Notes: generated by a model not told the origin, from the sequence alone. A DNA stretch of 29,037 nt from a virus (IMGVR_UViG_3300047560_001933:1-29037); one strand, 5' to 3'. Counted from the first letter of the stretch, positions 1,928 through 22,249 are shown. A program made the numbers and translations.

Positions 1928-2682
1928 ACGTTGTTATTTTTGGTAATGGAAAGGTTGGTAAAGCTACTGACCTTACAATGAAGTTGAATGCTGACTTCCA
2001 CGATCCCTATAAGGGTCTGGTTGTTACTGATTTCTCAAAGTATGATATTGCAATCATTTGTGTATCATCTCTGAATGATGGTCCTTATGATCACGATGCA
2101 ATCTATCATTGCTTAGATACATTGAACAAAGCCGAGTTTAAAGGAACGATTGCTATTAGATGTACTGTCTCGCCATCGTTCCTCAAAGCATGGGACCTTC
2201 AATTCCCTAACCTGAAAATTATTCACTTTCCTGAGTTTATGAAACAGGGTGATGATGAATATCTCGACAAGCCCTGGATTCTGGTTCTTGGTGGTGACAA
2301 GAAGCTGACTGTTCCATTTGGTAAGTGGTTGGTGGATAATGGATATGGACACGAGGAGCAGTGGCACTTCTGCACGAAAGTAGAGAGTGCATTAATCAAA
2401 TTGCATCAGAATGCTGGCCTGGCATTGAAGGTTGTTTATGCCAATATCATGTATGAAGCATGTCAAGCACATGGAGCTGATTATGAAAAAGTCCGTCAAG
2501 GGGTGGCTGCTGATGTTCGTGTTGGTCCTGGCCATCTTCAAGTTCCAGGTGAACATGGTTTTGGGTTTGCTGGACACTGCCTTCCCAAAGACTTGAAGTG
2601 CCTTGATAGGGTAGCGGATAGTAGAGGGTTCTGGCCAGCGGTTATGAAAGTTAACGAACAATTGAAAGCGAAGAATGTCTAA
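1924..2682 (+). CDS. UDP-glucose/GDP-mannose dehydrogenase-like protein, short form
   Basis: Resembles nucleotide-sugar 6-dehydrogenases, which oxidise UDP-glucose-type substrates to uronic acids with NAD. A Rossmann start is present (MNVVIFGNGKVG), then the central helical domain with the typical ESALIKLHQNAGLALK stretch (active-site Lys and Asn region), and the catalytic cysteine motif FAGHCLPKD with C219. At 252 aa it is far shorter than the usual 390-450 aa because the C-terminal sugar-nucleotide-binding domain is absent; the protein ends about 30 residues after the Cys motif. It may be an active minimal form, part of a two-protein enzyme, or act on another substrate. It overlaps deformylase by 4 nt and QueE by 8 nt, so it belongs to the same operon. 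The family is secure; the substrate is not. Confidence 0.82.
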   Translation: MNVVIFGNGKVGKATDLTMKLNADFHDPYKGLVVTDFSKYDIAIICVSSLNDGPYDHDAIYHCLDTLNKAEFKGTIAIRCTVSPSFLKAWDLQFPNLKIIHFPEFMKQGDDEYLDKPWILVLGGDKKLTVPFGKWLVDNGYGHEEQWHFCTKVESALIKLHQNAGLALKVVYANIMYEACQAHGADYEKVRQGVAADVRVGPGHLQVPGEHGFGFAGHCLPKDLKCLDRVADSRGFWPAVMKVNEQLKAKNV

Positions 2683-3583
2683 ACAAATTGCATACAGTGA
2701 GATCTTCCACTCTATTCAGGGTGAAGGTCACTACACAGGTCGACCAACAGCTTGGTTGAGATTCTTTCTTTGTAACCTTCAATGTGATGGGTTTGGCCAG
2801 AAGGATCCTACCGATCCATCTACATACGTTCTCCCATATAAGACAATTAAGGTTGAAGATTATAAGAAGCTAGAAGATCTGCCTGTGTGGAAGTATGGAT
2901 GTGACTCTTCTTATTCGTGGTCTGCAAAGTTTAAACATTTGCAACATAAGCATACAGCAGAAGAGATTTGCGATCGCATTCGTCAGTCGATGTACCATCC
3001 TTCTAATCCAGAAGGCCTCTTCAATAAGAGAGACGGTACACAACAACATCTTTGCTTTACAGGCGGTGAGCCTTTGATGAAGCATGCACAGGTTGCTGCT
3101 ATCGATATTGTTGATCATTTTGTTGAAGAGGGTGACTACCCATTGTATCTGACATGGGAAACAAACGGTACACAAGAACTGACATCAGAGTTTGCAAACT
3201 ACTTTGCTGACTATGCTGGTGAGGTTTTCTTTTCTATCTCTCCAAAGCTACACACAACATCTGGTGAGAAGCCAGAAGATGCAATTAAGATTGATGTTGT
3301 AAAGTCTTACACAGAGATTTCCTCATGGGGACAACTGAAGTTTGTTGTCAATGGGACAGAAGAATCGTGGAACGAGCTAGAGGCAACTGTAGCAAAGTTC
3401 CGTGAAGCAGGCGTGACATATCCTGTCTGGATTATGGGTGTTGGTGCAACACTTGAAGCTCAGAAGGGAACCGAAGCTGGTTATATCGGCGAAGCGAAGA
3501 TTGCTACAGAAGCATTCAAGCGTGGTTACAACTATTCCTCACGTGTGCACGTACACATCTGGGGTAACACAATGGGAACTTAA
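2675..3583 (+). CDS. queE: 7-carboxy-7-deazaguanine synthase QueE, radical SAM
   Basis: Radical SAM enzyme that converts 6-carboxytetrahydropterin to 7-carboxy-7-deazaguanine (CDG). The start shows the QueE hallmark SEIFHSIQGEG (residues 8-18), which binds substrate, and TAWLRFFLCNLQC, the beginning of the iron-sulfur site. Cysteines C33 and C37 are followed by a long insert before YGCDSSYSW (C76), which lines up with the canonical WCDSxxxW end of the cluster loop; normally this spacing is only two residues. The SAM-binding GGEP motif follows (CFTGGEPLM), and later TWETNGT and SISPKL. At 302 aa it is longer than typical QueE (about 210-250 aa), partly because of the insert. It lies directly before queD and close to folE, forming a deazaguanine cassette. 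Confidence 0.9.
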   Translation: MSKQIAYSEIFHSIQGEGHYTGRPTAWLRFFLCNLQCDGFGQKDPTDPSTYVLPYKTIKVEDYKKLEDLPVWKYGCDSSYSWSAKFKHLQHKHTAEEICDRIRQSMYHPSNPEGLFNKRDGTQQHLCFTGGEPLMKHAQVAAIDIVDHFVEEGDYPLYLTWETNGTQELTSEFANYFADYAGEVFFSISPKLHTTSGEKPEDAIKIDVVKSYTEISSWGQLKFVVNGTEESWNELEATVAKFREAGVTYPVWIMGVGATLEAQKGTEAGYIGEAKIATEAFKRGYNYSSRVHVHIWGNTMGT

Positions 3584-4114
3584 ATGGAAGATCATATTCA
3601 TGCATGGCGTTCTGCACGTCAATACAAATACACAAGCACAAAAGAATATCACGATGCATTTCCATGTGCATATCGTCAATGGAGAGCAGATAGTCATTGC
3701 AATCTGATTCATGGTTATAGCTTCTCGATGAAGTTCTACTTTGGAACAGATGATCTTGATGTTCGAAACTGGGCTGCTGACTATGGTGGTTTGAAAGAAC
3801 TGAAGAATGTACTTGAGGATCAATTTGATCACACTCTTCTTGTTGCTGAGGATGATCCTGAACTGGAAATGTATTATGAACTCGAGCGTCGCAACCTAGC
3901 GAAGCTGACAGTTCTTCCTAAGCTTGGCTGTGAGGGTCTTGCTGATCAGTTGTACAAGTATGTTAACGGTGTTTACATTCCTGATTACTGGGGCCCATCA
4001 GAAGCGAGTCGTTTATGGTGCTACCGTGTCGAAGTTCGCGAGACACAAAGCAATATGGCTTTCCGTGAAGGTCATCGTGAGTGGAATGAAGATCTATTTG
4101 AAGATGTAAGATGA
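3584..4114 (+). CDS. queD: QueD-like 6-carboxytetrahydropterin synthase (divergent)
   Basis: T-fold protein of the 6-pyruvoyltetrahydropterin synthase/QueD family, which turns dihydroneopterin triphosphate into 6-carboxytetrahydropterin, the QueE substrate. The family pattern is recognisable: FPCAY (residues 26-30) at the F-x-AAH position, catalytic-type C39 in SHCNLIHGYSF, FDHTLL (D82, H83) matching the LDHxxLN motif, GCEGLADQLYKYV matching the T/S-x-E-N-x-A helix, and VRET (E153) at the substrate-anchoring Glu. Two canonical zinc histidines appear replaced: AAH reads CAY (Y30) and HGH reads HGY (Y45). This is either a divergent phage lineage with a rearranged metal site or a changed activity. 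The gene abuts queE with no gap and overlaps the next gene by 4 nt. Confidence 0.82.
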   Translation: MEDHIHAWRSARQYKYTSTKEYHDAFPCAYRQWRADSHCNLIHGYSFSMKFYFGTDDLDVRNWAADYGGLKELKNVLEDQFDHTLLVAEDDPELEMYYELERRNLAKLTVLPKLGCEGLADQLYKYVNGVYIPDYWGPSEASRLWCYRVEVRETQSNMAFREGHREWNEDLFEDVR

Positions 4115-4908
4115 AAAGGCCACAACGCATCTTGGTGATGGGTCTGCCTGGAGCAGGTAAGACCTATCTCGCGCAGTTCATTGTTGAGACCCTACAAAAA
4201 GAAAAGAAGAAAGTAGGGTGGCTCAATGCTGATGATGTACGGAAGAAATACGATGACTGGGATTTCAGTCACGAGGGTAGAATCCGTCAGAGCAAGCGGA
4301 TGCGCCAGTTGGCTGACGAGATGACTAAGTTCGACTACGTCATTTGTGATTTCGTTGCTCCTCTACAGGAGATGAGAAACAACTTTAAAGCTGATTGGAC
4401 TATCTGGGTTGACACCATCGATGAGGGTAGGTTCGATGATACAAACAAGTTGTTCGTTCCTCCACAAGTTTATGACTTTAGAGTGACGGAACAAAAGGCA
4501 GAGAAGTGGGGTGAGTTTATTGCAGCTCACATCTACGACAACAGACGTCGACCTGTGTTTGACACAAAGAAAGAAACTGTCCAGTTGCTGGGTCGTTGGC
4601 AGCCATGGCATCTTGGTCATAGAACTCTCTTTGAAAGAGCTTTAGCTAAAACAGGTCAAGTTTGTATTATGGTCAGAGATTGTCAAGGATGGAATGATTC
4701 CAATCCTTTTAACTTTGAACAAATTCAAAACAGGATTCGCCGTGATCTTGACCCTCTCTATCAAGGGTTGTATAATATTCAACTGGTACCTAATATTGTA
4801 AACATTACATATGGACGCGATGTTGGTTACAAGATTGAAAAGGAAGAGCTCGGTGCTGCCATCGAGAAGATCTCAGCAACAGATATTAGGAAAGAACTTG
4901 GCGTTTAA
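4111..4908 (+). CDS. Adenylylsulfate kinase-like / NMN adenylyltransferase-like fusion
   Basis: Two-domain protein. The N-terminal half is a P-loop kinase with GLPGAGKT (residues 11-18) and WLNADDVRKKYDDWDFS, which matches the LDGDxxR...DLGFS pattern of APS kinases. The C-terminal half (about 155-265) is a nucleotidyltransferase with GRWQPWHLGH (HxGH at 167-170) and the closing ISATDIR (254-260), as in NMN adenylyltransferases of the NadM/NadR type. A kinase plus NMNAT pairing recalls NadR but with the domain order reversed. Likely roles are phosphorylation of a small molecule and NAD synthesis from NMN, or cytidylyl/adenylyl transfer to another substrate. It starts in an ATGA overlap with queD. 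Fold assignments are good; the substrates are inferred. Confidence 0.8.
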   Translation: MKRPQRILVMGLPGAGKTYLAQFIVETLQKEKKKVGWLNADDVRKKYDDWDFSHEGRIRQSKRMRQLADEMTKFDYVICDFVAPLQEMRNNFKADWTIWVDTIDEGRFDDTNKLFVPPQVYDFRVTEQKAEKWGEFIAAHIYDNRRRPVFDTKKETVQLLGRWQPWHLGHRTLFERALAKTGQVCIMVRDCQGWNDSNPFNFEQIQNRIRRDLDPLYQGLYNIQLVPNIVNITYGRDVGYKIEKEELGAAIEKISATDIRKELGV

Positions 4909-5095
4909 ACAATTCAAGTGGGTTCCGGATGGAACCTATGACTACAATAACTTTCTTGTTCGTTATGTGATCAAGGATGGCAATGCAACCAAAGTTATTT
5001 CTAAAATATGGGTTGACCTTGGCGGTCCAGATGATGTATCATTAGAACTTAAACAACCTTGGGGATCATTTCCAGATTTCCCACCAAAACCTTAA
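4898..5095 (+). CDS. Small hypothetical protein (65 aa)
   Basis: Starts at a TTG codon inside the last codons of the upstream fusion gene (11-nt overlap), preceded at 4888-4894 by AGGAAAG, a good ribosome-binding site. An in-frame ATG exists at 4811 but would force a long overlap and encode only basic, low-quality sequence, so TTG is preferred. The product begins MAFKQFKWVPDGTYDYNN, contains a predicted beta-rich core (FLVRYVIKDG, SKIWVDLG) and ends in a proline-rich tail (WGSFPDFPPKP). No motif identifies a function. Its position between the NMNAT-like gene and folE puts it in the deazaguanine operon, but that alone says little about its job. Confidence 0.6.
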   Translation: MAFKQFKWVPDGTYDYNNFLVRYVIKDGNATKVISKIWVDLGGPDDVSLELKQPWGSFPDFPPKP

Positions 5096-5106
5096 TAGGA
5101 GTGTAA

Positions 5107-5781
5107 ATGGAAAAGACAGACGCAGCATTGGGTGAACAGGTACATGCTCACCTACTATCAGTAGGCCTGGAAACACCTATGGTGTATGACCGAGTTAAGG
5201 TCAAGAATGACAAGAAGATTAAGAACATTGCAAAGCACTTTACAGCTATTATGGAAGAGCTTGGTCTTGATCTGACTGATGATTCTTTGATCGATACTCC
5301 TAATCGTGTTGCTAAGATGTATACACGAGAGATCTTCTTCGGTCTTGACTATGACAACTTCCCTAAGTGTACTCGCATTGAGAACAAGATGGGTGAGAAT
5401 AACAGCTTTGTTCTGGAGCGTAATATCAATGTGCAGTCTAATTGTGAGCACCATTTTGTCGTTATTGACGGTAAAGCCACTGTTGCGTACATTCCGAAGA
5501 AAACAATCCTCGGACTCTCAAAGCTAAACCGTATTGTTCAGTTCTTCTCTAAGCGTCCTCAAGTACAGGAACGTCTGACTGAGCAGATCGCTGAGACGAT
5601 TAGTTTTATTACAGGTTCCCCTGATGTTGCTGTATACATCGAAGGCGTACACTATTGTGTCAAGTCTCGTGGTATCCAGGATACATCATCTTCAACGATG
5701 ACTCTCGCTACGCGTGGTGCGTTTGCTGAAGAGAAGTCGGAACTGCGTCGTGAATTCCTTAACTCTGCACGGATGAAATAA
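5107..5781 (+). CDS. folE: GTP cyclohydrolase I (FolE)
   Basis: Converts GTP to 7,8-dihydroneopterin triphosphate, the first step of folate and 7-deazaguanine synthesis. The conserved zinc site is intact: CEHH with C113 and H116, plus C184 in VHYCVKSRG; catalytic H115 is present. Other family marks are DTPNRVAKMY (63-72) and the KTILGLSKLNRIVQFFSKRPQVQERLT block. At 224 aa it is normal length for a bacterial-type enzyme. A clear AGGAG at 5098-5102 precedes the ATG. In this operon, with queD and queE and without folate genes, its product most likely feeds CDG synthesis. Confidence 0.95.
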   Translation: MEKTDAALGEQVHAHLLSVGLETPMVYDRVKVKNDKKIKNIAKHFTAIMEELGLDLTDDSLIDTPNRVAKMYTREIFFGLDYDNFPKCTRIENKMGENNSFVLERNINVQSNCEHHFVVIDGKATVAYIPKKTILGLSKLNRIVQFFSKRPQVQERLTEQIAETISFITGSPDVAVYIEGVHYCVKSRGIQDTSSSTMTLATRGAFAEEKSELRREFLNSARMK

Positions 5782-5782
5782 A

Positions 5783-6244
5783 ATGCGTACACAACGTCAA
5801 ACTCAAACCTGGACTCCCACTCTTGTTGAAGCTTTTGGACCTTCTGGTGAAAAAGGTCGTAAAGGTGAGCTCTTTGTAAAGAGAGCTATTGAGAGTTGGG
5901 GTTGGCAAGTTAGAGACAACGAAGGTAATATTCTTGAGCAATTGTCTGGTCGTGATCTTTGGATCAAGAAACCTGAGTGGAGTAACTTCTACAGCATTGA
6001 TGTAAAGAACAATCTCAACGAGTATGGGGCATTCACTGTTGTTCCTAAAGAGTGGATGAACCCTGCAAAGAAGAATGATCGTTTCTGGCACGTCAATACT
6101 GAGACAGGTTGGATGGCGTGGTACTCGCGTGAAGATATGCAACGATTCATTGGTACGACCAATCGTGTCCGTTCTTTTACAGTAGGTATCAAAGACCAAC
6201 TGCCTTTCAAGATCACACGCGCTCGTTTCAATGTACCGTTTTGA
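5783..6244 (+). CDS. Putative PD-(D/E)XK nuclease-like protein
   Basis: A 153-aa protein with a pattern fitting the restriction-endonuclease/Holliday-resolvase fold: a helix with E29 (GRKGELFVKRAIESWGW), then D58 in SGRDLWI, then D73-V-K75 in YSIDVKNN. That is the E...D...DxK order of PD-(D/E)XK enzymes, with short spacing as in small resolvases and very-short-patch-like nucleases. The second half (WFxx-type aromatic residues, WHVNTETGWMAWY) may bind nucleic acid. No exact family name is recognised. It begins one base after folE and overlaps the methyltransferase gene by 14 nt. The fold call is a motif-level inference; a structural protein with a chance match is possible. Confidence 0.5.
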   Translation: MRTQRQTQTWTPTLVEAFGPSGEKGRKGELFVKRAIESWGWQVRDNEGNILEQLSGRDLWIKKPEWSNFYSIDVKNNLNEYGAFTVVPKEWMNPAKKNDRFWHVNTETGWMAWYSREDMQRFIGTTNRVRSFTVGIKDQLPFKITRARFNVPF

Positions 6245-6836
6245 TTATCCGGATTGGTCTAGTGTTCATCACACGCACTGGAAGACAATACTAGATAAAC
6301 ACCTTGACCTTGAATCTCCTTTGAGGATGATTGAGGTCGGGTGTTTTGAAGGCAGATCAACTATGTGGTTTGCCGGTTACCTTTGTCATAATCCTCTCTC
6401 ACGGTTGGTGTGTATTGATACATGGCAAGGCGGTGAAGAGATTGAACGCTTGAAGCTACCATTTGATATGCTTAAAGTGTTTGATAACTTCTGTAAGAAT
6501 GTAATCAACCACGATCAATCAGTAAAGATTTTTACACATAAGGGATCATCAGAGAGTCATTTGTCTTCTTTATTGTACAAGGGGTATCAAAGCTATGACT
6601 TCATTTACCTTGATGCATCTCATACGCGTCGTGATACATTGGTAGATCTTACACTATCACTGCTTCTTGTAAAGAAGGGTGGTGTCATTATTATCGATGA
6701 CTACAACAACAATATGGCAACAAAAGATCCTGCACTACGACCCCGTACCGCTGTAGACTTTATTGTTGAAACATTCGATAGTGAAGTAGAGTTTTATAAG
6801 ACTCCAGAGCAACAAGCTGTTATTATTAGAAAGTGA
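6231..6836 (+). CDS. SAM-dependent class I methyltransferase
   Basis: Rossmann-type methyltransferase of 201 aa. Motif I reads IEVGCFEGRS (residues 34-43), the ribose-binding acidic residue is D63 in LVCIDTWQGG, and the later strands DFIYLDASHTR and GGVIIIDDYN are typical of the Methyltransf_24/FkbM-like group, which often acts on sugars or small molecules. No DNA-methylase DPPY/NPPY motif is visible, so a DNA base methylase of the classical N6/N4 type is unlikely. It overlaps the upstream nuclease-like gene by 14 nt and ends in a GTGA overlap with the next gene. Its substrate is unknown; a sugar, a nucleotide or a modified base are all possible. Confidence 0.78.
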   Translation: MYRFDYPDWSSVHHTHWKTILDKHLDLESPLRMIEVGCFEGRSTMWFAGYLCHNPLSRLVCIDTWQGGEEIERLKLPFDMLKVFDNFCKNVINHDQSVKIFTHKGSSESHLSSLLYKGYQSYDFIYLDASHTRRDTLVDLTLSLLLVKKGGVIIIDDYNNNMATKDPALRPRTAVDFIVETFDSEVEFYKTPEQQAVIIRK

Positions 6837-7219
6837 ATATGGACAATAAGAGTTTTATTTGGGTGACATTTCAGAAAGAAGGCATCCACCGATACCCTGC
6901 TGCAGCTACAGACCCTAAACTGAAGACAGGTGATTGGTTGGATGTCAGCTTTTTAGGTGTTCCACATCGCCACATCTTTCATTTCCGTGTTGAGATGGAA
7001 GTGTTCCATGATGATCGTGATGTTGAATTCATTCAAGCAAAGCGCACAATGGAGCGTTGGTTGTCTGATGGTACAATGACGCTTGACTACAAATCTTGTG
7101 AAATGATGGCACGCAGCATGTATGACCATTGTGTTAGCAAGTGGCCTGACCGCGACTATGTTATCGAAGTCTCCGAGGACGGAGAGAACGGTTGCCGCAT
7201 TTATTTCCCGAAAGGTTGA
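6833..7219 (+). CDS. Conserved hypothetical protein, possible T-fold
   Basis: A 128-aa product starting at GTG (GTGA overlap with the methyltransferase); an ATG six bases downstream (6839) is an alternative start. The sequence is rich in aromatic and acidic residues: PHRHIFHFRVEMEVFHDD near the middle and SCEMMARSMYDHCVSKWP toward the end, finishing EVSEDGENGCRIYFP. The HxHxFxxxVEV strand followed by a helix with SCExxA and a closing E-containing strand is reminiscent of the QueD/PTPS T-fold order, but the similarity is weak. I believe close relatives occur in T4-like phages of aquatic bacteria without a known function. Its place between queDE/folE and the TGT-like gene is consistent with a pterin or deazaguanine role, which is inference. 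Confidence 0.6.
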   Translation: MNMDNKSFIWVTFQKEGIHRYPAAATDPKLKTGDWLDVSFLGVPHRHIFHFRVEMEVFHDDRDVEFIQAKRTMERWLSDGTMTLDYKSCEMMARSMYDHCVSKWPDRDYVIEVSEDGENGCRIYFPKG

Positions 7220-7221
7220 TC

Positions 7222-8079
7222 TTGATTAACTTCTGCCACATCTCTCCCACCGCCTATCTCAATAAGTATACTAAGAGTAACGGAGCGCACTTGCTTCTTG
7301 CCCACTTGGTTGAAGAGGATCCTCAGTACCGTGATTACTATGCGAACCTCAACGACGACAAGTACAAGATCATGGATAACAGTGCTTTCGAAATGTTTAA
7401 GCTCGGACGTCCCATGTATGAGTCGTCAAAGCTAATTGAGATGGGCAAAGCATGCAATGCAAATTGTATTGTGCTTTCCGATTACCCCAAGCAACCTTCA
7501 CGAGTGACGGTGGAAGCCGCCAAGCGGTTGATCCCCGAGTTTAAGACGGAGGGATTTGATACCTTCTTCGTGCCACAAAGCGAGCTTGGTGACATGGTCG
7601 ATCTTGTTAATGCCATTGAGTGGGCTCTTAATAATGATGACATTGACTTGATCGGCATGTCTATTTTGGCAGCACCTATTGCATGTGGTGTTGACGAATC
7701 AACGTTTGAAGGTGGTAAGCGTAGCGATGCATACAAGATGCAACGTTATCTTTCACGTCTGACGGTGTTCCGTGAACTTGAGCGTCGCAAGTTGCTGACA
7801 GATAGAGCAAAGAAACGTTTCCACTGTCTTGGTATGGTCGATGGACCAAAAGAGATTAACCTATTGCGAGAATACAGTGACTTCATTTACTCCTGGGACT
7901 CTAGTGCTGCTGTTTGGGCTGGTATCAATGGTATTGAGTTTGATGCTTCGCCTACTGGTCTACAGAATGGTAAATTCGAAAAAGAAGTAGACTTTTCCTA
8001 CAATGAGGAGCATAATCCTCAGCTTGTTTATGAAAACATTCACTACATTGATTGTATGGCGACAGGTGTATGGCGTTGA
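7222..8079 (+). CDS. tRNA-guanine transglycosylase-like protein, candidate DpdA-type DNA deazaguanine transferase
   Basis: TIM-barrel protein with features of the queuine tRNA-ribosyltransferase superfamily, whose phage members (DpdA) exchange guanine in DNA for a 7-deazaguanine. From the TTG at 7222 (285 aa): MDNSAFEMF (D52, like the substrate-binding Asp of TGT), LSDYPKQPSR (D87), FVPQSELGDM, IDLIGMSI, CLGMVDGPKEINLL, and YSWDSSAAVWAGINGIEFD with D226 near the TGT nucleophile position, followed by GLQNGKF (compare RNGxxF in TGT). The TGT zinc-binding cysteine cluster is not seen. TTG at 7222 follows GAAAGG by a normal distance; ATG at 7192 is the alternative, overlapping the previous gene by 28 nt. 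Neighbouring folE, queD and queE support a base-exchange role. Superfamily is moderately sure; the DNA target is inferred. Confidence 0.6.
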   Translation: MINFCHISPTAYLNKYTKSNGAHLLLAHLVEEDPQYRDYYANLNDDKYKIMDNSAFEMFKLGRPMYESSKLIEMGKACNANCIVLSDYPKQPSRVTVEAAKRLIPEFKTEGFDTFFVPQSELGDMVDLVNAIEWALNNDDIDLIGMSILAAPIACGVDESTFEGGKRSDAYKMQRYLSRLTVFRELERRKLLTDRAKKRFHCLGMVDGPKEINLLREYSDFIYSWDSSAAVWAGINGIEFDASPTGLQNGKFEKEVDFSYNEEHNPQLVYENIHYIDCMATGVWR

Positions 8080-13240: not shown

Positions 13241-13610
13241 GGTAAAGTTAAAGATAGACGAAGATTTTCTAAAGGTCCGTGAGACACTTACACGGATCGG
13301 TGTCGCCTCTAAAAAAGAACAAGTATTGTACCAATCGTGTCATATCCTGCATAAGCAGGGTTTGTATTACATTGTACACTTCAAGGAGCTGTTTGCTCTT
13401 GATGGTAAGCCTTCTAATATATCCGAAGAAGACCTAGGAAGACGTAATACAATCGCTAACCTAATTGCTGAGTGGGGATTAGTGACATTGGTCGAACCAG
13501 GCAAATCCAAGGATCCTATCGCTCCTATGTCGCAGATAAAGATCATCCCTTTCAAAGAAAAGAATGATTGGGAGCTTGTGACCAAATATAATATTGGTCG
13601 TAAGGTTTAA
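13215..13610 (+). CDS. regA: Translational repressor RegA
   Basis: RNA-binding protein that represses translation of early phage mRNAs by covering start regions. The 131-aa product is clearly RegA: DFLKVRETLTRIGVASKKEQ, VLYQSCHILHKQGLYYIVHF and the C-terminal WELVTKYNIG are near T4 RegA (122 aa). ATG 13215 is chosen over GTG codons at 13203-13209 because it follows GGTGGTGAG and gives a RegA-like start. The TAA stop overlaps the stop of the opposite-strand gene, leaving no terminator space. In T4, gp43 follows regA directly; here a minus-strand module intervenes. Confidence 0.94.
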   Translation: MIKLEALVEVKLKIDEDFLKVRETLTRIGVASKKEQVLYQSCHILHKQGLYYIVHFKELFALDGKPSNISEEDLGRRNTIANLIAEWGLVTLVEPGKSKDPIAPMSQIKIIPFKEKNDWELVTKYNIGRKV

Positions 13611-14173
13611 AGATACTTGCGGCTTCTTGCAGCCCACAGTCCTTCAGATATACCAAACTGAACAATTCCGTAAAAGATAAGACCGATAATTACAACAGCA
13701 AGAGCACACCACCCAAGCTCTATTAACAATTCTTTACGTTCTTTTGCTTTCTTATCATTGATCATTTGGAGACGAAGCTCTTCTGCTTCCTCATCTCTGA
13801 TCTTCTTGCGCATCTCTTCGCGTACGGTACACATATCATGCCATATGTCACCATTGCCGGACCACAATAACATCTCATAAAGTTTATACTCTTCACGTTC
13901 AAGAGTCTTGCGTTTGATCGCAATGTCTAAAGCCTCAGCAGTTATCTCTGCATCGGTTTTCTTTTGTTTCTTTTGTTTGTTGAAAGTAAGATCGTGTACT
14001 TCACGTTCTTTAATGCGCTCGGCTTTTTCAATTACACTCTTGTGCTTGAAGTATTCAATAATGTTTGATGATATGTCACCAACATCTTGACCGAGCTTGA
14101 TCAGCTCTTTGATACCAGCAACCGTAGCTTTAGCACCGGCAAATGCTAACCCTATTGTTGCTGGATCGATCAT
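13607..14173 (-). CDS. Membrane-anchored coiled-coil hypothetical protein (188 aa)
   Basis: Last gene of the minus-strand module. It begins MIDPATIGLAFAGAKATVAG, a glycine/alanine-rich head, followed by a long, highly charged helical region (residues 45-145, KAERIKEREVHD, KQKKQKKTDAE, EEMRKKIRDEEAEELRLQ), then one hydrophobic helix (LGWCALAVVIIGLIFYGIVQ) and a basic tail ARSRKYL. This looks like an inner-membrane protein with a large soluble helical part. Proteins of this kind accompany DUF4337 proteins in other aquatic T4-like phages, from memory. A role as a structural or lysis-linked protein is possible but not shown. Confidence 0.7.
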   Translation of the reverse strand: MIDPATIGLAFAGAKATVAGIKELIKLGQDVGDISSNIIEYFKHKSVIEKAERIKEREVHDLTFNKQKKQKKTDAEITAEALDIAIKRKTLEREEYKLYEMLLWSGNGDIWHDMCTVREEMRKKIRDEEAEELRLQMINDKKAKERKELLIELGWCALAVVIIGLIFYGIVQFGISEGLWAARSRKYL

Positions 14174-14179
14174 TTTACA

Positions 14180-14728
14180 TTATAGGACAATTGGTAGCCA
14201 CAACCAAACTGCTTGCGACAAAAACACGGTCGCAACACCACCAACAGCCAGACTTGCCCAATACAGACGCATATTGACAGCAAGAATAGATGCTGTTAAC
14301 AGAACAACAGCAATCTGGAATAGCGAACCAGCATACGTGTACCAGGGACTACGCAGCTTTGCTACAGTGCGGTCTTCCTCGAGCTTACGTGCTTTTGCCA
14401 TCAACTCTTTCTTACCCTCACCCGTCTTGGGATCAGATTCGTAGCGATCAATCTTTGCCTTCAGCGCTTCCTGTTTAACTTTGTCTTTATTATGGACAGC
14501 GTCATCATATGCCATTTCAGCAAGCGTTTGCTTGATACTCTTAGCCTGGTAGAATGCCCACGTGTTGTTTGCATCTATAGTGTTATTAAGTATCTTACTA
14601 CTATTGCTACCGCCGAAATAGGTATTAAGGGCCAGAAGAGCAGCAAAAACCACAATAACCCACCCTGCTTTATCTTTAATTTGTGCTTCTCTTTCGCTTC
14701 GACTAAGAGGCTTCTTTTCTTCACTCAT
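14180..14728 (-). CDS. DUF4337-like membrane protein
   Basis: A 182-aa membrane protein with an N-terminal transmembrane helix (AGWVIVVFAALLALNTYFGG), the DUF4337-type segment NNTWAFYQAKSIKQTLAEMAY, a charged helical stretch with KAKIDRYESDPKTGEGKKEL, and two more hydrophobic helices near the end (SLFQIAVVLLTASILA and WASLAVGGVATVFLSQAVWL). DUF4337 proteins occur in bacteria and many T4-like phages and have no known function. It starts in an ATGA overlap with the 42-aa gene and is followed 6 nt later by the 188-aa gene. Confidence 0.75.
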   Translation of the reverse strand: MSEEKKPLSRSEREAQIKDKAGWVIVVFAALLALNTYFGGSNSSKILNNTIDANNTWAFYQAKSIKQTLAEMAYDDAVHNKDKVKQEALKAKIDRYESDPKTGEGKKELMAKARKLEEDRTVAKLRSPWYTYAGSLFQIAVVLLTASILAVNMRLYWASLAVGGVATVFLSQAVWLWLPIVL

Positions 14729-14853: not shown

Positions 14854-15438
14854 TTACTTAGCCAGAGGGTTGTCGATCGCTTTTTGGATCTTGTTGTCGA
14901 CTTCCTTCTTCAGGGTCTCGACTTCACGGCCAATTTCGCGACGAGCCTCTGCCATTTCCTTACGGACAGCATTGACTTCGTTTCGTGCTTTATCAAGATC
15001 CTCACGGACATCCTTACGAGCTTGACGCATTTCTTGCTCTGTCTCACGCTGAGCTTGCTTTACACTACGTTCCACTTGCTCAGTCACTGTCTCATTACGA
15101 CGAATGTCTGTTTTTAGATCATTCTTAATATCACGTGTGTAATCAGCAGTCTTGGAGCTATTCTGTTCAATAACAGCCAGGCGCTTATCGAATTCAGAAA
15201 GATCGGGAGCAATATACTCCGCAATCTTTTTCTTCATGCCAATGTAGTCCTTGTAGACTTCAAAAGCACCATACAAACCACCGAGGATAGATGACACAAG
15301 CGTAGCTGCCACCATTAGCTTTGCTGGTGTAAATTCATATCCACCAATGCTAATAACGGTATCCTTGCTTGCATACTTCTTAACCGCTGCTTCTGCTTCG
15401 TCAATTTTTGCGTTGACGTCTTTAATTTCTTCTGACAT
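14854..15438 (-). CDS. Membrane protein with long coiled coil (194 aa)
   Basis: N-terminal acidic helix (MSEEIKDVNAKIDEAEAAVK), a hydrophobic span (LMVAATLVSSILGGLYGAFEV), then a long charged helical region from about residue 70 to the end, rich in Glu, Arg and Lys (QRETEQEMRQARKDVRED), ending KKEVDNKIQKAIDNPLAK. The heptad-like spacing suggests a coiled coil projecting from the membrane, a layout compatible with spanin-type or tether proteins, though no lipoprotein signal is visible. The start follows AAGGGAAGAT, which overlaps the stop of the upstream 777-aa gene. Function unknown. Confidence 0.72.
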   Translation of the reverse strand: MSEEIKDVNAKIDEAEAAVKKYASKDTVISIGGYEFTPAKLMVAATLVSSILGGLYGAFEVYKDYIGMKKKIAEYIAPDLSEFDKRLAVIEQNSSKTADYTRDIKNDLKTDIRRNETVTEQVERSVKQAQRETEQEMRQARKDVREDLDKARNEVNAVRKEMAEARREIGREVETLKKEVDNKIQKAIDNPLAK

Positions 15439-15439
15439 T

Positions 15440-17773
15440 TTATCTTCCCTTGTATTGTTGATTTACCATCTCCTGATGTACTCTATCAGAAGAGAGCTGT
15501 CTCAAAGCTCTGACATTATCGACGGTGTTCTGTCGAGGATAGATGTCACGTGGTGCATAAAATGAACTGTCCTTTAAAACTAATGTCAGATATGAATTAT
15601 AACCGGTTGGTAGCATAGCAATTTTTGCAATGTCAACGCCGACCGCGGCCTCATTGACAGCAACTTCTTTCTTTACAGTAGACATTTGCTGCTCCATTGA
15701 GACACCAGATATGATCGGTTGACCTTCAATGATTTCTCTTAATGGATTTGTTCTATCAATAAGAAAACTCGTACTAGTTGAAGGTGCTTCTACTTCTACT
15801 TCTCTTCTACTATTTGATAGTTCTTGAAATCCTCGTGACTGCTGCACTGTTTCGGTAAACACAGGTGCAGCAATGGTAGGTGCAAAAGAAGCTACTTGCA
15901 TACTTGGTACAATTGAATAGTTAGCTTGTATCTCAAACGACTGATTGGTCATCTGAGATACAGGCGCCACACTTTGTACTGTTGGAGCAAGTTGCATCTG
16001 CTGTAGCTGTTGCATTGTTGTAATTGCTGTAGATGTAACTTGCTGTTGTACTTGAGGACCACCTTGCAACTGTACAGCACCCATTCCGGCAAAGCTTTGC
16101 AAACCTAATCCCCCACCAGCCGAGGCTGATCTTGAATCGGATGTTGCAGATGTTGTACCAGAAGAAGATCCAGTCGTGGTTGTTGTAGACATACTTGCTT
16201 CACTTGCCTTAGTTGCAACCGAAACAGCTTCCTGTTGTGCCTGAGATCCTGCAGCTTGCGCTTGTTCAACCGCTGTAGCTACCGCACTCATTGCTATTGC
16301 TTTCTCCTTCTCAGCATTCTTTGATATTAGATTCATAGCAAAGGAAAGATTGACGGGTGAAGCAACAGCTCTATCAGACGTTGCAGCACTACCAGCACTC
16401 GAACTTACACTTGTTGTAGATGTAGATGATGAGGAACTGCTAGACGCTGTCTGTGTAGAAGCTGGCGGAGGCGGAGGCGCTGTAGATGGAGAAATTGCTT
16501 GTACTGTTGATCCAGATGGAGAAGTAGTGAATGTTATTGCATCTGTTGTGTTAGTACCTGCCGTAACACTTGCTGGTTCTGTATATCCCGTTGTAGCGTA
16601 ATCTGTTTTGTTTGTACCATTGAGCTTATCGATTGCTTCCTGGAATCCAGTACACGTTGGGCTATACATAACGTTCTTCATACAAGGATCTGGTGTAACG
16701 ATCATCTTGCTGTACATATTGTAGATTGAACCATTTCCTTCTACTTGAGCACTGAAATGAAAGTTACCCATCAGATTGGTGTTAGTAGAATTAGGAAATA
16801 AGTATTGATAGTTCATCTCTTGTGGACCGGTGTTAGCACCCTGGAACACATGATTGTTATTGAACACTAATCCACCGTTTGCGTTAGTGGCACCAGCGCT
16901 CACACGTGCAACGCTGTCTGTCCAACCTGTACAAAATATACCGAGGAACGAAGATGAGCAGTATGGATCTTTCAAATCATAAACGAAGCCATATTTGAAT
17001 CCATGCAGTGCTAAGCCTGAGCCTGAGCTCGACAAAACTGTTGCAATTGGATATGTGTTATCAACGTAGTTACTGCCAGTCGCAACAGCATTTGGATACG
17101 GAACCAGGTTGATACTTGTTACAAGATCATTGAACCCAGCACATTGCGGACTGTACGCTGGATTGTTAGCGCATGGATCAACACGGTAGTTTAGCGAAAG
17201 TTGAGGATCACGAACACGAGGTCCGTAGTATCCGGCCCAGAAGCGACTGTCTTTACCCGTAAAGGATACGGAAATCGTTGACAGTTCACCAGCGAGGTAG
17301 TTACGTGTAAAGTTTTGTGTACCGGAAAACAACTGAAAGTATTCTGCATCACCTGTAGTGTTTTGTGCATTATAGTTATATGAATACGTTTCTAACGTGT
17401 TACCAGCAGTACCCTTCAACGTGACATTACCAGTAAGCGATCCAAAATAATTAGCGGTATTGTTGTTAATCTTCCAGCTATAGTTATAGCCAGTAACTTG
17501 AATACCCGTATCCTGCAAAGCACTGTTAATTGCTACAGATTGTGTTGTAGTCTGCTGTGTATACCCAAACAAAATTGTGTTTGTAGTTGGGTTAAAGCCC
17601 GCTGTGTATCCACCACTATACCCTCCTGCAGATCCTGGAACGGTTCCGCTCCAAGATCCCGAAGCACCACTTAACAGATTGCTTGTGGTCGCATCCTGAG
17701 CATTAGAACTTAAACAGATTGTGAACAGCAATACCGAACAGAGCGCCAAGCCCAATTTTCTTATAAGTGTCAT
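15440..17773 (-). CDS. Exported 777-aa protein with two CX9C beta-type domains
   Basis: A clear Sec signal peptide opens the protein (MTLIRKLGLALCSVLLFTIC, likely cleaved after SNA at residue 25). Gly/Thr/Asn/Tyr-rich beta-type sequence follows, with two related blocks that each end in DPC-x9-C-x-GF (C201/C211 and C364/C374), suggesting duplicated disulfide-bonded domains. Residues 400-560 are a Ser/Thr/Ala/Pro linker including PPPPP, then a Gln-rich stretch (560-650) and a C-terminal domain with QNTVDNVRALRQLSSDRVHQ. It lacks a recognised enzyme motif. It is probably placed in the periplasm or outer membrane of the host, or is a virion protein made through the Sec route. ATG 17773 follows AAGGAAAAG. 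The first 71 nt overlap the upstream gene. Confidence 0.78.
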   Translation of the reverse strand: MTLIRKLGLALCSVLLFTICLSSNAQDATTSNLLSGASGSWSGTVPGSAGGYSGGYTAGFNPTTNTILFGYTQQTTTQSVAINSALQDTGIQVTGYNYSWKINNNTANYFGSLTGNVTLKGTAGNTLETYSYNYNAQNTTGDAEYFQLFSGTQNFTRNYLAGELSTISVSFTGKDSRFWAGYYGPRVRDPQLSLNYRVDPCANNPAYSPQCAGFNDLVTSINLVPYPNAVATGSNYVDNTYPIATVLSSSGSGLALHGFKYGFVYDLKDPYCSSSFLGIFCTGWTDSVARVSAGATNANGGLVFNNNHVFQGANTGPQEMNYQYLFPNSTNTNLMGNFHFSAQVEGNGSIYNMYSKMIVTPDPCMKNVMYSPTCTGFQEAIDKLNGTNKTDYATTGYTEPASVTAGTNTTDAITFTTSPSGSTVQAISPSTAPPPPPASTQTASSSSSSSTSTTSVSSSAGSAATSDRAVASPVNLSFAMNLISKNAEKEKAIAMSAVATAVEQAQAAGSQAQQEAVSVATKASEASMSTTTTTGSSSGTTSATSDSRSASAGGGLGLQSFAGMGAVQLQGGPQVQQQVTSTAITTMQQLQQMQLAPTVQSVAPVSQMTNQSFEIQANYSIVPSMQVASFAPTIAAPVFTETVQQSRGFQELSNSRREVEVEAPSTSTSFLIDRTNPLREIIEGQPIISGVSMEQQMSTVKKEVAVNEAAVGVDIAKIAMLPTGYNSYLTLVLKDSSFYAPRDIYPRQNTVDNVRALRQLSSDRVHQEMVNQQYKGR

Positions 17774-19040
17774 CTGTCTTTTCCTTTACAGGTTCTGGTA
17801 CTTTGTCTGGATTTGCTTCCCATGCTGCTTTAGCCTGTTCGCCAATCTTGCCTTCAAACGGGCAAGGTGTTCCTGCTGCTAGCATAGCATCAAAGACACG
17901 GCGATCCTGACACATGGTTGCAACTGCAGCAACCTTCATACCCATATCGTATAAAGTTTTGGATAGTTTCAGGCGTTCACAATTCTCATCACGTACTACA
18001 CCTCCGGATGAAACACCAAAAATCTGTGTTTGAACGGATCCGGATGTACCTGTAGTACACAGATCAGCATTACCACCACTCATCATTGCAGGTGCAATTG
18101 CGGTTGGAGGTGGCTGAATAACACGTTGTGTGATTGTTGTTTCGTTAATATTACGGTTGGTCATCTCACCAGATTGAATGTTCTGATTCACGTTATTTGA
18201 CGTGCTTGTGTTGTTGTTCTGGTTTACGTTGTTAGACGTAGATGTGCTATTGTTATTGTTGTTATTTGTCATACTTCCACTCTGAATATTGTTGTTTGTA
18301 TTCACGCTTGTGGATGTATTGTTGTTATTGTTGTTGTTTGTCATACTTCCACTTTGAATGTTATTGTTTGTATTAACACTCGTAGAAGTACTGTTATTCA
18401 CGTTATTGTTATTGTTCGTCATGCTTCCGCTTTGAATATTGTTATTTGTATTCACGTTTGTAGAAGAAGCAGTGCTAGAGTTGTTATTGTTATACGTCAT
18501 CGTGCCGCTGTTGATGTTCGTATTAACGTTATTGCTAGCGTTGTTGTTATTGTATGTCATCGTACCGGTATTCACGTTTGTGTTGGTCGATGTGCTAACG
18601 TTGTTATTGTTATTTGTAATCGTACCGGTATTGTTGTTGTTATTGTTATAGGTCATTGTACCAGAGTTGACGTTATTGTTGTTATACGTCATTGATCCGG
18701 TATTAACGTTATTGTTATTGTTTGTGACAGTACCGCTTTGAACGTTATTGTTCGTGTTTATACTTGTAGCAGTCGATGTAGAAGTACTCGTATTAACGTT
18801 GTTGTTGGTGCTTGTACTGTTGACAGTCGAAGTGCTTGTTGCCGTACTGTTGGAGTTTGTTGTATTATTGGTGTTTACTGTACTAACACTATTTGAAGTA
18901 CTGTTAGTATCCACTAACGATTTTGAATCGTAAGTGAGCGTTCCACTCGTTTGATTGATCAAAGCTGGTGTTGTTTGTCCCTGCGCCGTCACGTAACTCA
19001 TTACAAAAAGTAGCGAAAGTGCTAACTTTTTGATTTGCAT
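17703..19040 (-). CDS. Exported Asn/Ser/Thr-rich repeat protein (445 aa)
   Basis: Signal peptide MQIKKLALSLLFVMSYVTAQ, then about 255 residues (45-300) made almost entirely of Asn, Ser, Thr and Val. Within them a short unit, G-[ST]-[MVIL]-T-[NY]-N-N-N, recurs about ten times (starting near residues 103, 115, 127, 139, 159, 179, 205, 231, 255 and 291). The C-terminal part is ordinary protein: DLCTTGTSG, VVRDENCERLKLSKTLYDMG, MCQDRRVFDAMLAAGTPCPF with four or more cysteines, and a final hydrophobic stretch IGLGALFGIAVHNLFKF. The repeat may fold as a beta-solenoid or fibre; the Cys-rich domain is likely a conserved anchoring or assembly domain. First gene of the minus-strand module; AAGGAAC lies before the ATG. 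Function unknown. Confidence 0.82.
   Translation of the reverse strand: MQIKKLALSLLFVMSYVTAQGQTTPALINQTSGTLTYDSKSLVDTNSTSNSVSTVNTNNTTNSNSTATSTSTVNSTSTNNNVNTSTSTSTATSINTNNNVQSGTVTNNNNNVNTGSMTYNNNNVNSGTMTYNNNNNNTGTITNNNNNVSTSTNTNVNTGTMTYNNNNASNNVNTNINSGTMTYNNNNSSTASSTNVNTNNNIQSGSMTNNNNNVNNSTSTSVNTNNNIQSGSMTNNNNNNNTSTSVNTNNNIQSGSMTNNNNNNSTSTSNNVNQNNNTSTSNNVNQNIQSGEMTNRNINETTITQRVIQPPPTAIAPAMMSGGNADLCTTGTSGSVQTQIFGVSSGGVVRDENCERLKLSKTLYDMGMKVAAVATMCQDRRVFDAMLAAGTPCPFEGKIGEQAKAAWEANPDKVPEPVKEKTDDTYKKIGLGALFGIAVHNLFKF
18141..18908 (-). repeat. Asn-rich coding repeat array
   Basis: Region encoding residues 45-300 of the exported repeat protein. On the + strand it appears as long runs of GTT/ATT/GTA-type triplets such as TTGTTGTTATT. 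On the coding strand AAC/AAT, AGT/ACT and GTA/GTT dominate, mixed rather than one pure codon. Unit spacing changes along the array: 12 residues early, 20 in the middle, 24-26 late, which suggests successive duplications of different unit sizes. Three late units share VNTNNNIQSGSMTNNNNN almost exactly. The mixed codons argue that the amino acids, not the DNA, are under selection. Confidence 0.85.
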
Positions 19041-19071: not shown

Positions 19072-19100
19072 TTGTCAAAAAAACCAATACAGTGTATAAT
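19072..19100 (+). promoter_or_regulatory. Sigma70-like promoter, divergent from the minus-strand module
   Basis: TTGTCA at 19072-19077 and a perfect TATAAT at 19095-19100 are separated by 17 bases, the ideal bacterial spacing. It lies in the 66-base gap between the start of the minus-strand module and the + strand 101-aa gene. The expected transcription start (about 6-7 bases after the -10) falls on or next to the ATG at 19107, so the transcript may have little or no 5' leader. It is one of the few intergenic spaces in the window and could restart transcription after the opposite-strand block. Confidence 0.7.
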
Positions 19101-21062: not shown

Positions 21063-21512
21063 ATGTCAGTAACACTAAAAAATTTAGAGAGCGCATTGGC
21101 TGGTGAGTCAATGGCTCACATTAAATACCGCTACTTTGCTAAACTAGCTCGTGCTGAAGGATTCGAAGAAGTTGCAAAACACTTTGAACATACGGCAGAT
21201 CAAGAGATCCTACATGCATGGGGTCACCTGGAGTTGCTGATCGGTAAGCCTTCTACAAAGGAATGCCTGGAGAAAGCAATTGCTGGTGAGACATATGAAT
21301 ACACAGAGATGTATCCACAGTTTCATGCTATTGCTGTCAAAGAAGGTGACCTAAGCGCTGCTGGTGTTGCTCTTGAGCAAATGGCTGAGTCAAAAGAACA
21401 TGCTGAACAGTTTGTTAAAGTACTAGCGCTTGCAGAAAAGCGTTTCGCTGCTTTGCAGAAAGTTGAACAACGTCATGCAGAAGCATACAAAAAAGTATTG
21501 GAGGCACTATAA
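21063..21512 (+). CDS. Rubrerythrin-like di-iron protein, catalytic domain only
   Basis: Ferritin-like four-helix protein of 149 aa matching the di-iron domain of rubrerythrin, which reduces hydrogen peroxide. Metal-ligand motifs are visible: GESMAH (E15), ADQEILHAWGH (E48 with H51), GETYEYTEMYP (E76 and E79) and MAESKEHAEQF (E109 to H113). The rubredoxin domain normally fused at the C-terminus is absent, but a separate rubredoxin gene follows, its ATG sharing a base with this stop codon. The pair therefore acts as a split rubrerythrin and should protect against peroxide during infection. Good ribosome-binding site (AAAGGAG). Confidence 0.9.
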   Translation: MSVTLKNLESALAGESMAHIKYRYFAKLARAEGFEEVAKHFEHTADQEILHAWGHLELLIGKPSTKECLEKAIAGETYEYTEMYPQFHAIAVKEGDLSAAGVALEQMAESKEHAEQFVKVLALAEKRFAALQKVEQRHAEAYKKVLEAL

Positions 21513-21757: not shown

Positions 21758-22249
21758 ATGCAATTTGGTAACATTAACTTTGGTCCTCAATTCAAAGACG
21801 TCGATAAATTCTTCGTTGGTTTTGATGACACATTCAATCGCATCGCAAAGATGCACGATGATCTGACAAAGAACATCCCCAACTACCCACCTTACAATAT
21901 CAAAAAGACTGGCGATAACACTTACGTTATCGAATTGGCTGTTGCTGGCTTTGCCAAGCAAGATATTGAGATTGAACTAGCCGAAGGCAAGATGGTCATT
22001 AAGGGCAATGTGCAAGATGATACAGACAACGATAACTTCCTGTTCAAGGGTATCGCTGCTCGTAATTTCACACGTACATTTGCGCTTGAAGATCAAGTAG
22101 AAGTCAAAGACGCAGAGATGCTCAATGGCATGTTGAAAGTGTTCCTGGAACGAATCATTCCTGAACACAAGAAGCCAAAGAAAATCGAAGTCAAAGAAAA
22201 GACTTCTAAAAAGGCTGACAAGCAATATCTTACAGAAGACGATCTGTAA
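21758..22249 (+). CDS. Small heat shock protein Hsp20/alpha-crystallin
   Basis: ATP-independent chaperone of 163 aa. The alpha-crystallin domain covers about residues 45-135: NTYVIELAVAGFAKQDIEIEL, GKMVIKGNV, RNFTRTFALEDQVEVKDAEM and NGMLKVFLER, with a polar linker before the C-terminal tail rich in Lys. The N-terminal arm has FKDVDKFFVGFDDTFNR. Hsp20 genes are common in aquatic T4-like phages and may protect replication or capsid proteins. AGGAG (21748-21752) precedes the ATG with good spacing. The leader holds a terminator and a late promoter, so regulation by read-through is possible. Confidence 0.92.
   Translation: MQFGNINFGPQFKDVDKFFVGFDDTFNRIAKMHDDLTKNIPNYPPYNIKKTGDNTYVIELAVAGFAKQDIEIELAEGKMVIKGNVQDDTDNDNFLFKGIAARNFTRTFALEDQVEVKDAEMLNGMLKVFLERIIPEHKKPKKIEVKEKTSKKADKQYLTEDDL

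Follow-up and report, generated by a model that had tools for sequence, protein, structure and literature searches.

The window analysed here, a 29,037-nucleotide stretch of viral DNA (IMGVR_UViG_3300047560_001933), carries a block of five consecutive minus-strand genes, designated A to E, inside a replication and nucleotide metabolism region that is otherwise coded on the plus strand. Gene A (17703..19040, minus strand) starts with an ATG preceded by an RBS-like AAGGA and encodes an exported protein of 445 aa; the initial annotation had called this ORF without giving its strand, and the call is borne out. About 21 N-terminal residues (18978..19040) form the signal peptide that had also been proposed. 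It is evident by eye from a K in the n-region, a hydrophobic core and the ending AQG/Q, and 83 of 87 family members carry a similar N-terminus by a simple hydropathy test. An Asn/Ser/Thr tract with two-faced alternation follows (residues 25-309, 18114..18968), defined by motif and face statistics, and then a PPPTAIAP linker with a mostly helical four-Cys domain (residues 310-416, 17793..18113), supported by invariant cysteines, an AlphaFold model and PHROG 20531. The protein ends in a hydrophobic tail (17706..17771), the bases of which also encode the signal peptide of gene B. No copy of the T4 late promoter TATAAATA was found upstream of A, its sole copy in the window corresponding to chance expectation, and a sigma-70-like site at 19072-19100 is directed away from A. 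RNA families gave no match within the window.

The description of residues 45-300 as almost exclusively Asn, Ser, Thr and Val proved accurate (N 100, T 53, S 42 and V 17 of 256), as did the count of about ten repeats. Ten G-x-x-T-[NY] motifs, all of the form G-x-[MVI]-T-[NY], start at residues 103, 115, 127, 139, 159, 179, 205, 231, 255 and 291, the last ending at 295, and their spacing increases stepwise as had been noticed (12, 12, 12, 20, 20, 26, 26, 24, 36). The strict pattern G[ST]xT[NY]NNN is present in nine of the ten motifs, a number that shuffling the tract 20,000 times never produced (mean 0.016). Codon usage is mixed (64 AAC and 36 AAT for Asn, four Thr codons, six Ser codons), and the selection at the protein level suggested on this basis agrees with a family-wide excess, within the tract, of synonymous (22,867) over replacement (14,315) changes. 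The layered duplications previously proposed would fit a small excess of codon identity at lags 12, 24 and 26, and would then be old ones. The cysteines that had marked the C-terminal domain as Cys-rich are four in number (328, 354, 377 and 393) and are invariant in 74 aligned relatives.

Gene B (15440..17773, minus strand) encodes an exported protein of 777 aa, identified by its signal peptide, its structure model and alignment. Two beta sandwiches (residues 26-200 and 214-362) are followed by a disordered linker with one helix, and the conserved C-terminus reads FYxPxxIY..VDN.R..QY. The model, with pLDDT mostly above 80 across residues 31-380, matches tandem CBM22 modules (4xup, E=4.5e-7), CBM16 (Z 10.3) and the sugar-binding domain of Fbs1 (Z 13.3, 3.0 A over 152 residues), and a PDB sequence search returned weak matches to F-box sugar-binding proteins. 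As modelled, B is thus a carrier of a carbohydrate-binding-module-like beta-sandwich fold. Gene C (14854..15438, minus strand) encodes 194 aa with, by alignment, a single membrane span and a coiled coil whose last residues, NPL, are invariant in 33 aligned sequences. Downstream in the block lie, also on the minus strand, two genes for membrane proteins: D (14180..14728), a DUF4337 protein (PF14235, E=1.7e-31) found in 12 loci, and E (13607..14173), a MIDP... protein with a C-terminal membrane span (PHROG 32327) found in 17 loci. Across loci, A was counted 75 times, B 67 times plus 7 short forms, and C 65 times, in the order A, B, C in nearly all cases. The length of the A tract correlates with the length of B (Spearman 0.46), a value left out of the argument because of shared ancestry.

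The start of B often overlaps the end of A, and the hydrophobic tail of A depends on this arrangement. It is present in 41 of the 49 loci in which the overlap is at least 40 nt and in none of the 29 others, hence in 41 of 78 A members, and the tail and the B signal peptide are overprinted in a constant relative frame across loci. Being confined to the overlap, the tail is an uncertain anchor and may be a by-product of overprinting.

Relatives of A are numerous in viral sequence collections. A scan of IMG/VR gave at least 598 confirmed relatives, from which 80 loci were retained for analysis; the contigs of these listed relatives have lengths of about 4 to 352 kb, and cultured pelagiphages and roseophages are included. 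A search of GenBank with the C-terminal domain found it in 11 phages, six of Pelagibacter, two of Roseobacter and three uncultured. GTDB, with 84,980 species genomes, yielded just 20 loci with A relatives; their placement almost entirely in metagenome-assembled genomes suggests that they derive from phages and not from cellular genes. The attribution to a phage stands, and the relatives in IMG/VR and GenBank exclude an artefact as the origin of the repeat. The absence of a named family was likewise confirmed: A has no match in Pfam or NCBIfam and corresponds only to PHROG 20531, of unknown function (E=2.7e-11; matched by five of six family members scanned). No function could be assigned to A or B from Pfam, NCBIfam or PHROGs, and a PDB sequence search with the A domain found no match. 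The tract preceding this domain varies from near zero (L057, L058, L078) to about 500 residues (L070); in about a third of A members it is shorter than 70 residues, and in some shorter than 30. The many short tracts imply that the fibre discussed below is dispensable for whatever the core of the protein does.

The main property of the tract is a rule of even steps. Two or more G-x-[MVIL]-T-[NY] motifs occur in 36 A-family proteins, and every one of their 216 spacings is an even number; 26 different values, from 10 to 94, are represented. The residues in phase with the motif glycine are mainly N (50%), S (21%), G (8%), M (5%) and Y (3%), and those of the opposite face T (40%), N (22%), V (11%) and I (6%). 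Charged residues (D, E, K, R, H) occupy two of about 4,040 positions on the G face of these motif-bearing proteins, against 271 on the other face (266 without His). The same alternation is referred to the C-terminal domain. A tract of 100 residues or more is present in 55 proteins, and in every one of them Thr lies mostly at an even distance from the PPP linker (88% of their Thr residues), with 619 charged residues on the Thr face and 34 on the other. Since the parity statistics include related sequences, these raw numbers are less trustworthy than the cluster counts, by which all 24 clusters formed at 90% domain identity keep the phase to the PPP linker, as do tracts of 45 distinct lengths. 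In a hold-out set from GTDB, seven of eight tracts were in phase and six of six motif spacings even, the lone exception being a tract of 50 residues; tracts under about 70 residues are frequently without visible phase. Gaps in pairwise alignments are predominantly even in the A tract (1532 even, 348 odd) in contrast to the B proteins (282 even, 455 odd), and some of the odd gaps in the tract probably reflect the noise of aligning low-complexity sequence. Taken at the level of sequence, these counts show that the register of the tract is locked to the C-terminal domain at any length.

Even steps, together with the exclusion of charge from alternate residues over hundreds of positions, argue strongly for a continuous beta chain with one face buried and the other exposed, so that the A tract would be a two-faced beta fibre. 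Intertwined oligomeric beta fibres and stacked cross-beta sheets are each compatible with the parity data. The beta-solenoid fibre of the initial annotation is retained as a probable beta fibre and abandoned as a regular solenoid, because the 26 even spacings are not multiples of one coil length and a solenoid with a fixed coil would need larger steps, and the phase-separating matrix suggested there fits poorly with a tract of such strict register. The AlphaFold model of a single chain is confident in the C-terminal domain (pLDDT 83-96 over residues 361-420) and poor in the tract (29-76 overall, 42-76 over residues 101-260). It places strands in the repeats and a hairpin turn at each G; hairpins with tight two-residue turns would exchange the two faces each time, contrary to the parity, and little weight was given to this modelled detail. 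A Foldseek search with the model returned no significant PDB match and, in BFVD, uncharacterised phage proteins; the negative result excludes little, as the model is poor outside the domain.

The surroundings of the A-B-C trio point to the lysis stage in part of the loci. In four of them (L016, L025, L041 and L047) a spanin-like pair, a GH19 endolysin and A follow one another, the ends of endolysin and A being within about 21 nt. The L016 endolysin matches PHROG 181 (E=3.6e-76), its lipoprotein the Rz-like spanin PHROG 456 (E=3e-7), and the inner-membrane partner gives a weak Rz match (E=0.0073). A GH19 endolysin is located 2.5-3.3 kb downstream in five further loci (L055, L061, L070, L080 and L084). 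Among named phages, Mosig has a three-span GTA_holin_3TM gene immediately upstream of the trio, HTVC033P a lysozyme upstream of it, HTVC023P an M15 peptidase directly after C, and HTVC202P and Baldr the terminase large subunit after the trio. Most loci, and the window among them, have neither a recognised endolysin nor a recognised spanin within the stretch examined; in the window, C is followed by the membrane proteins D and E.

We tentatively favour the view that A, B and C constitute an exported envelope apparatus of the lysis stage. The three proteins would be made within or beside the lysis block. The A tract would form a long beta fibre, for example through intertwining or stacking of several chains, the uncharged faces turned inward, while the four-Cys domain would be disulfide-bonded in the periplasm and located at the envelope with or without the hydrophobic tail. 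The tandem beta sandwiches of B, judging from their fold, may bind a glycan such as peptidoglycan or LPS, and C would be the coiled-coil partner in the inner membrane. Together they might help to breach or otherwise deal with the outer cell layers at lysis, in addition to spanins where these are present; the coexistence of a spanin-like pair in four loci means that the trio is not simply a missing spanin. A broader formulation is possible but doubtful: A would be a viral beta fibre of a new, exported class that obeys a two-residue rule at any even length and has its register locked to a four-Cys domain. Joined by a protein that binds glycans and by a coiled coil in the inner membrane, it would form an envelope machine of the lysis stage, widespread among aquatic phages and different in kind from holins, endolysins and spanins.

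The main rival explanation makes A a fibre or adhesin on the surface of the infected cell, serving the aggregation of neighbours or the exclusion of competing phages. Such a role would suit an exported beta tract that is rich in N, S and T and carries, as cross-beta zippers do, an uncharged face; it would also suit the glycan-binding folds of B, and curli genes of other pelagiphages have been proposed to act in sibling capture or exclusion (PMC7029224, PMC9599517). However, the outer-membrane pore CsgG was found in none of 25 A-bearing records, a search that detects it in HTVC008M (E=1.8e-54) and that, for the window, covers a genome fragment. No other exporter was identified in the trio, and the repeated placement of the trio in lysis blocks also speaks against a surface fibre, which we regard as rather improbable.

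Alternatively, the trio could itself be a spanin-like system of outer-membrane disruption, with A and B directed outward and C as the inner-membrane coiled coil. The layout of C resembles that of i-spanins, and in T7-like pelagiphages the trio either adjoins the holin or lies a short way ahead of the large terminase gene, the position equivalent to that of the spanins in T7. Against this, A and B are without a lipobox, a separate spanin-like pair lies beside the trio in the four loci with the endolysin, and A has four cysteines, compared with a periplasmic Cys in none of 58 surveyed u-spanins (PMC6139136). We consider the spanin-like explanation unlikely.

Another possibility is that the tract is a disordered linker of low complexity that varies neutrally, the even rule being produced by slippage of 6-base dipeptide units. 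The tract is of low complexity, its length ranges from nearly nothing to about 500 residues, and exact 6-base repeats of three or more copies occur at nine places in A tracts, four of them in L072. However, codon identity at a lag of two codons is at expectation (0.432 against 0.437), which removes recent hexanucleotide slippage as the cause of the rule. The constant phase with the domain (55 of 55 tracts, 45 lengths), the asymmetry of charge (619:34) and the predominance of synonymous over replacement changes also oppose neutral variation, and make a disordered linker very unlikely. That A belongs to the virion, be it as a whisker, as a decoration fibre or as a protein with a tail-fibre repeat, is still harder to credit: phage fibres are often rich in beta structure and tail-fibre genes lie near some A relatives, but the Sec signal peptides of A and its partner B place both outside the cytoplasm, where virions are assembled, and the trio stands in lysis blocks.

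A word search of open-access papers found no description of the A protein or of the trio. A is thus an undescribed exported protein which, in most sampled loci, belongs to a trio without a reference-family name. A role in lysis would make it an envelope component over and above holin, endolysin and spanin, possibly relevant to the roughly 13% of surveyed phages in which no spanin has been recognised (PMC6139136). If it is a surface fibre instead, aquatic phages would gain a tool comparable to curli. The even-length rule offers a simple way of recognising, from sequence, beta fibres concealed in tracts of low complexity.

Among known systems, curli, already described in pelagiphages (PMC7029224, PMC9599517, PMC9004378), resemble A in several respects: CsgA and CsgB are exported, have beta-prone repeats containing Asn and Gln, occur in related marine phages and have been proposed to form a surface fibre. 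The motif spacing of A is nevertheless unlike the regular curli repeat, and its partners are B and C. Identity with a curli subunit was rejected, as Curlin_rpt (PF07012) matched none of the 25 A-bearing records and detected the E. coli control; type VIII secretion was rejected on the CsgG search described above. Nor does the curli operon of HTVC008M occupy the place of the trio of Mosig, which adjoins the primase gene: in HTVC008M, CsgG is at 8 kb and the primase at 118 kb.

The unimolecular spanin gp11 of phage T1 is likewise exported, largely beta and encoded near lysis genes, and its hydrophobic C-terminal segment may have a counterpart in the tail carried by half of the A members. A was rejected as a unimolecular spanin in view of its classical signal peptide ending AQG/Q, with no Cys at the cleavage site and no lipobox, and of its four invariant cysteines, periplasmic cysteines being absent from all 58 surveyed proteins (PMC6139136); it differs further in having partner proteins and, in some genomes, a spanin-like pair alongside. 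The prion-like domains surveyed in phages (PMC5694896) share with A an Asn-rich tract in a phage protein, whereas that survey is composition-based and makes, in the parts consulted, no mention of an exported trio or a parity rule.

The triple-stranded beta-helix of T4 gp5 is also a phage beta fibre, built of Gly-containing repeats of even length (VxGxxxxx, eight residues) in which residues point inward or outward and the interior is partly polar (PMC4576200). It belongs to the virion, as a spike synthesised in the cytoplasm, and its repeat is fixed at eight residues, in contrast to A, which is exported and tolerates any even spacing, and no sequence relation between the two was seen. The parity of A, as read from its sequences, is nonetheless compatible with a triple-stranded beta-helix fibre.

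The end of A and the start of B are overprinted: at 17703-17773 of the window, shared bases code for A's hydrophobic tail and, in a different frame, for B's signal peptide. This overprinting was found in 41 loci, and the relative frame is identical in all of them. A sigma-70-like promoter with near-consensus elements (TTGTCA-17-TATAAT; 19072-19100, plus strand) is located between A and the divergent plus-strand genes.

Elsewhere in the window, Pfam identified phage-encoded peptide deformylase (1406-1927), rubrerythrin/ferritin-like protein (21063-21512) and Hsp20 (21758-22249), as well as two plus-strand genes, one PTPS/QueD-like (3584-4114) and one for GTP cyclohydrolase I (5107-5781). Because QueE-like (2675-3583) and Tgt-like (7192-8079) genes, both on the plus strand, recognized by eye and without a Pfam match, lie near the latter two, the gene content of 2675-8079 (plus strand) suggests 7-deazaguanine DNA modification.

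Some loci with relatives of A carry further genes of note. A phage-encoded, exported D-alanyl-D-alanine carboxypeptidase (Peptidase_S11) lies close to the A, B and C trio in eight loci (L020:9392-10099 and seven others), and a small Cys-rich lipoprotein-like gene with a YRYPCQ motif and no family match is located 3' of C in ten (L041:10867-11079 and nine others). In L057 (8412-9291), L062, L063, L065, L066 and L074, A and B occur in a short form and are followed by two more exported proteins of about 165 and 124 aa, neither matched in Pfam or PHROG.

In pelagiphages, the coiled coil of C contains His-rich HxH stretches (L003:10032-10391, L007:7770-8111, L008:8032-8355), which are reminiscent of metal-binding phage fibre coils.
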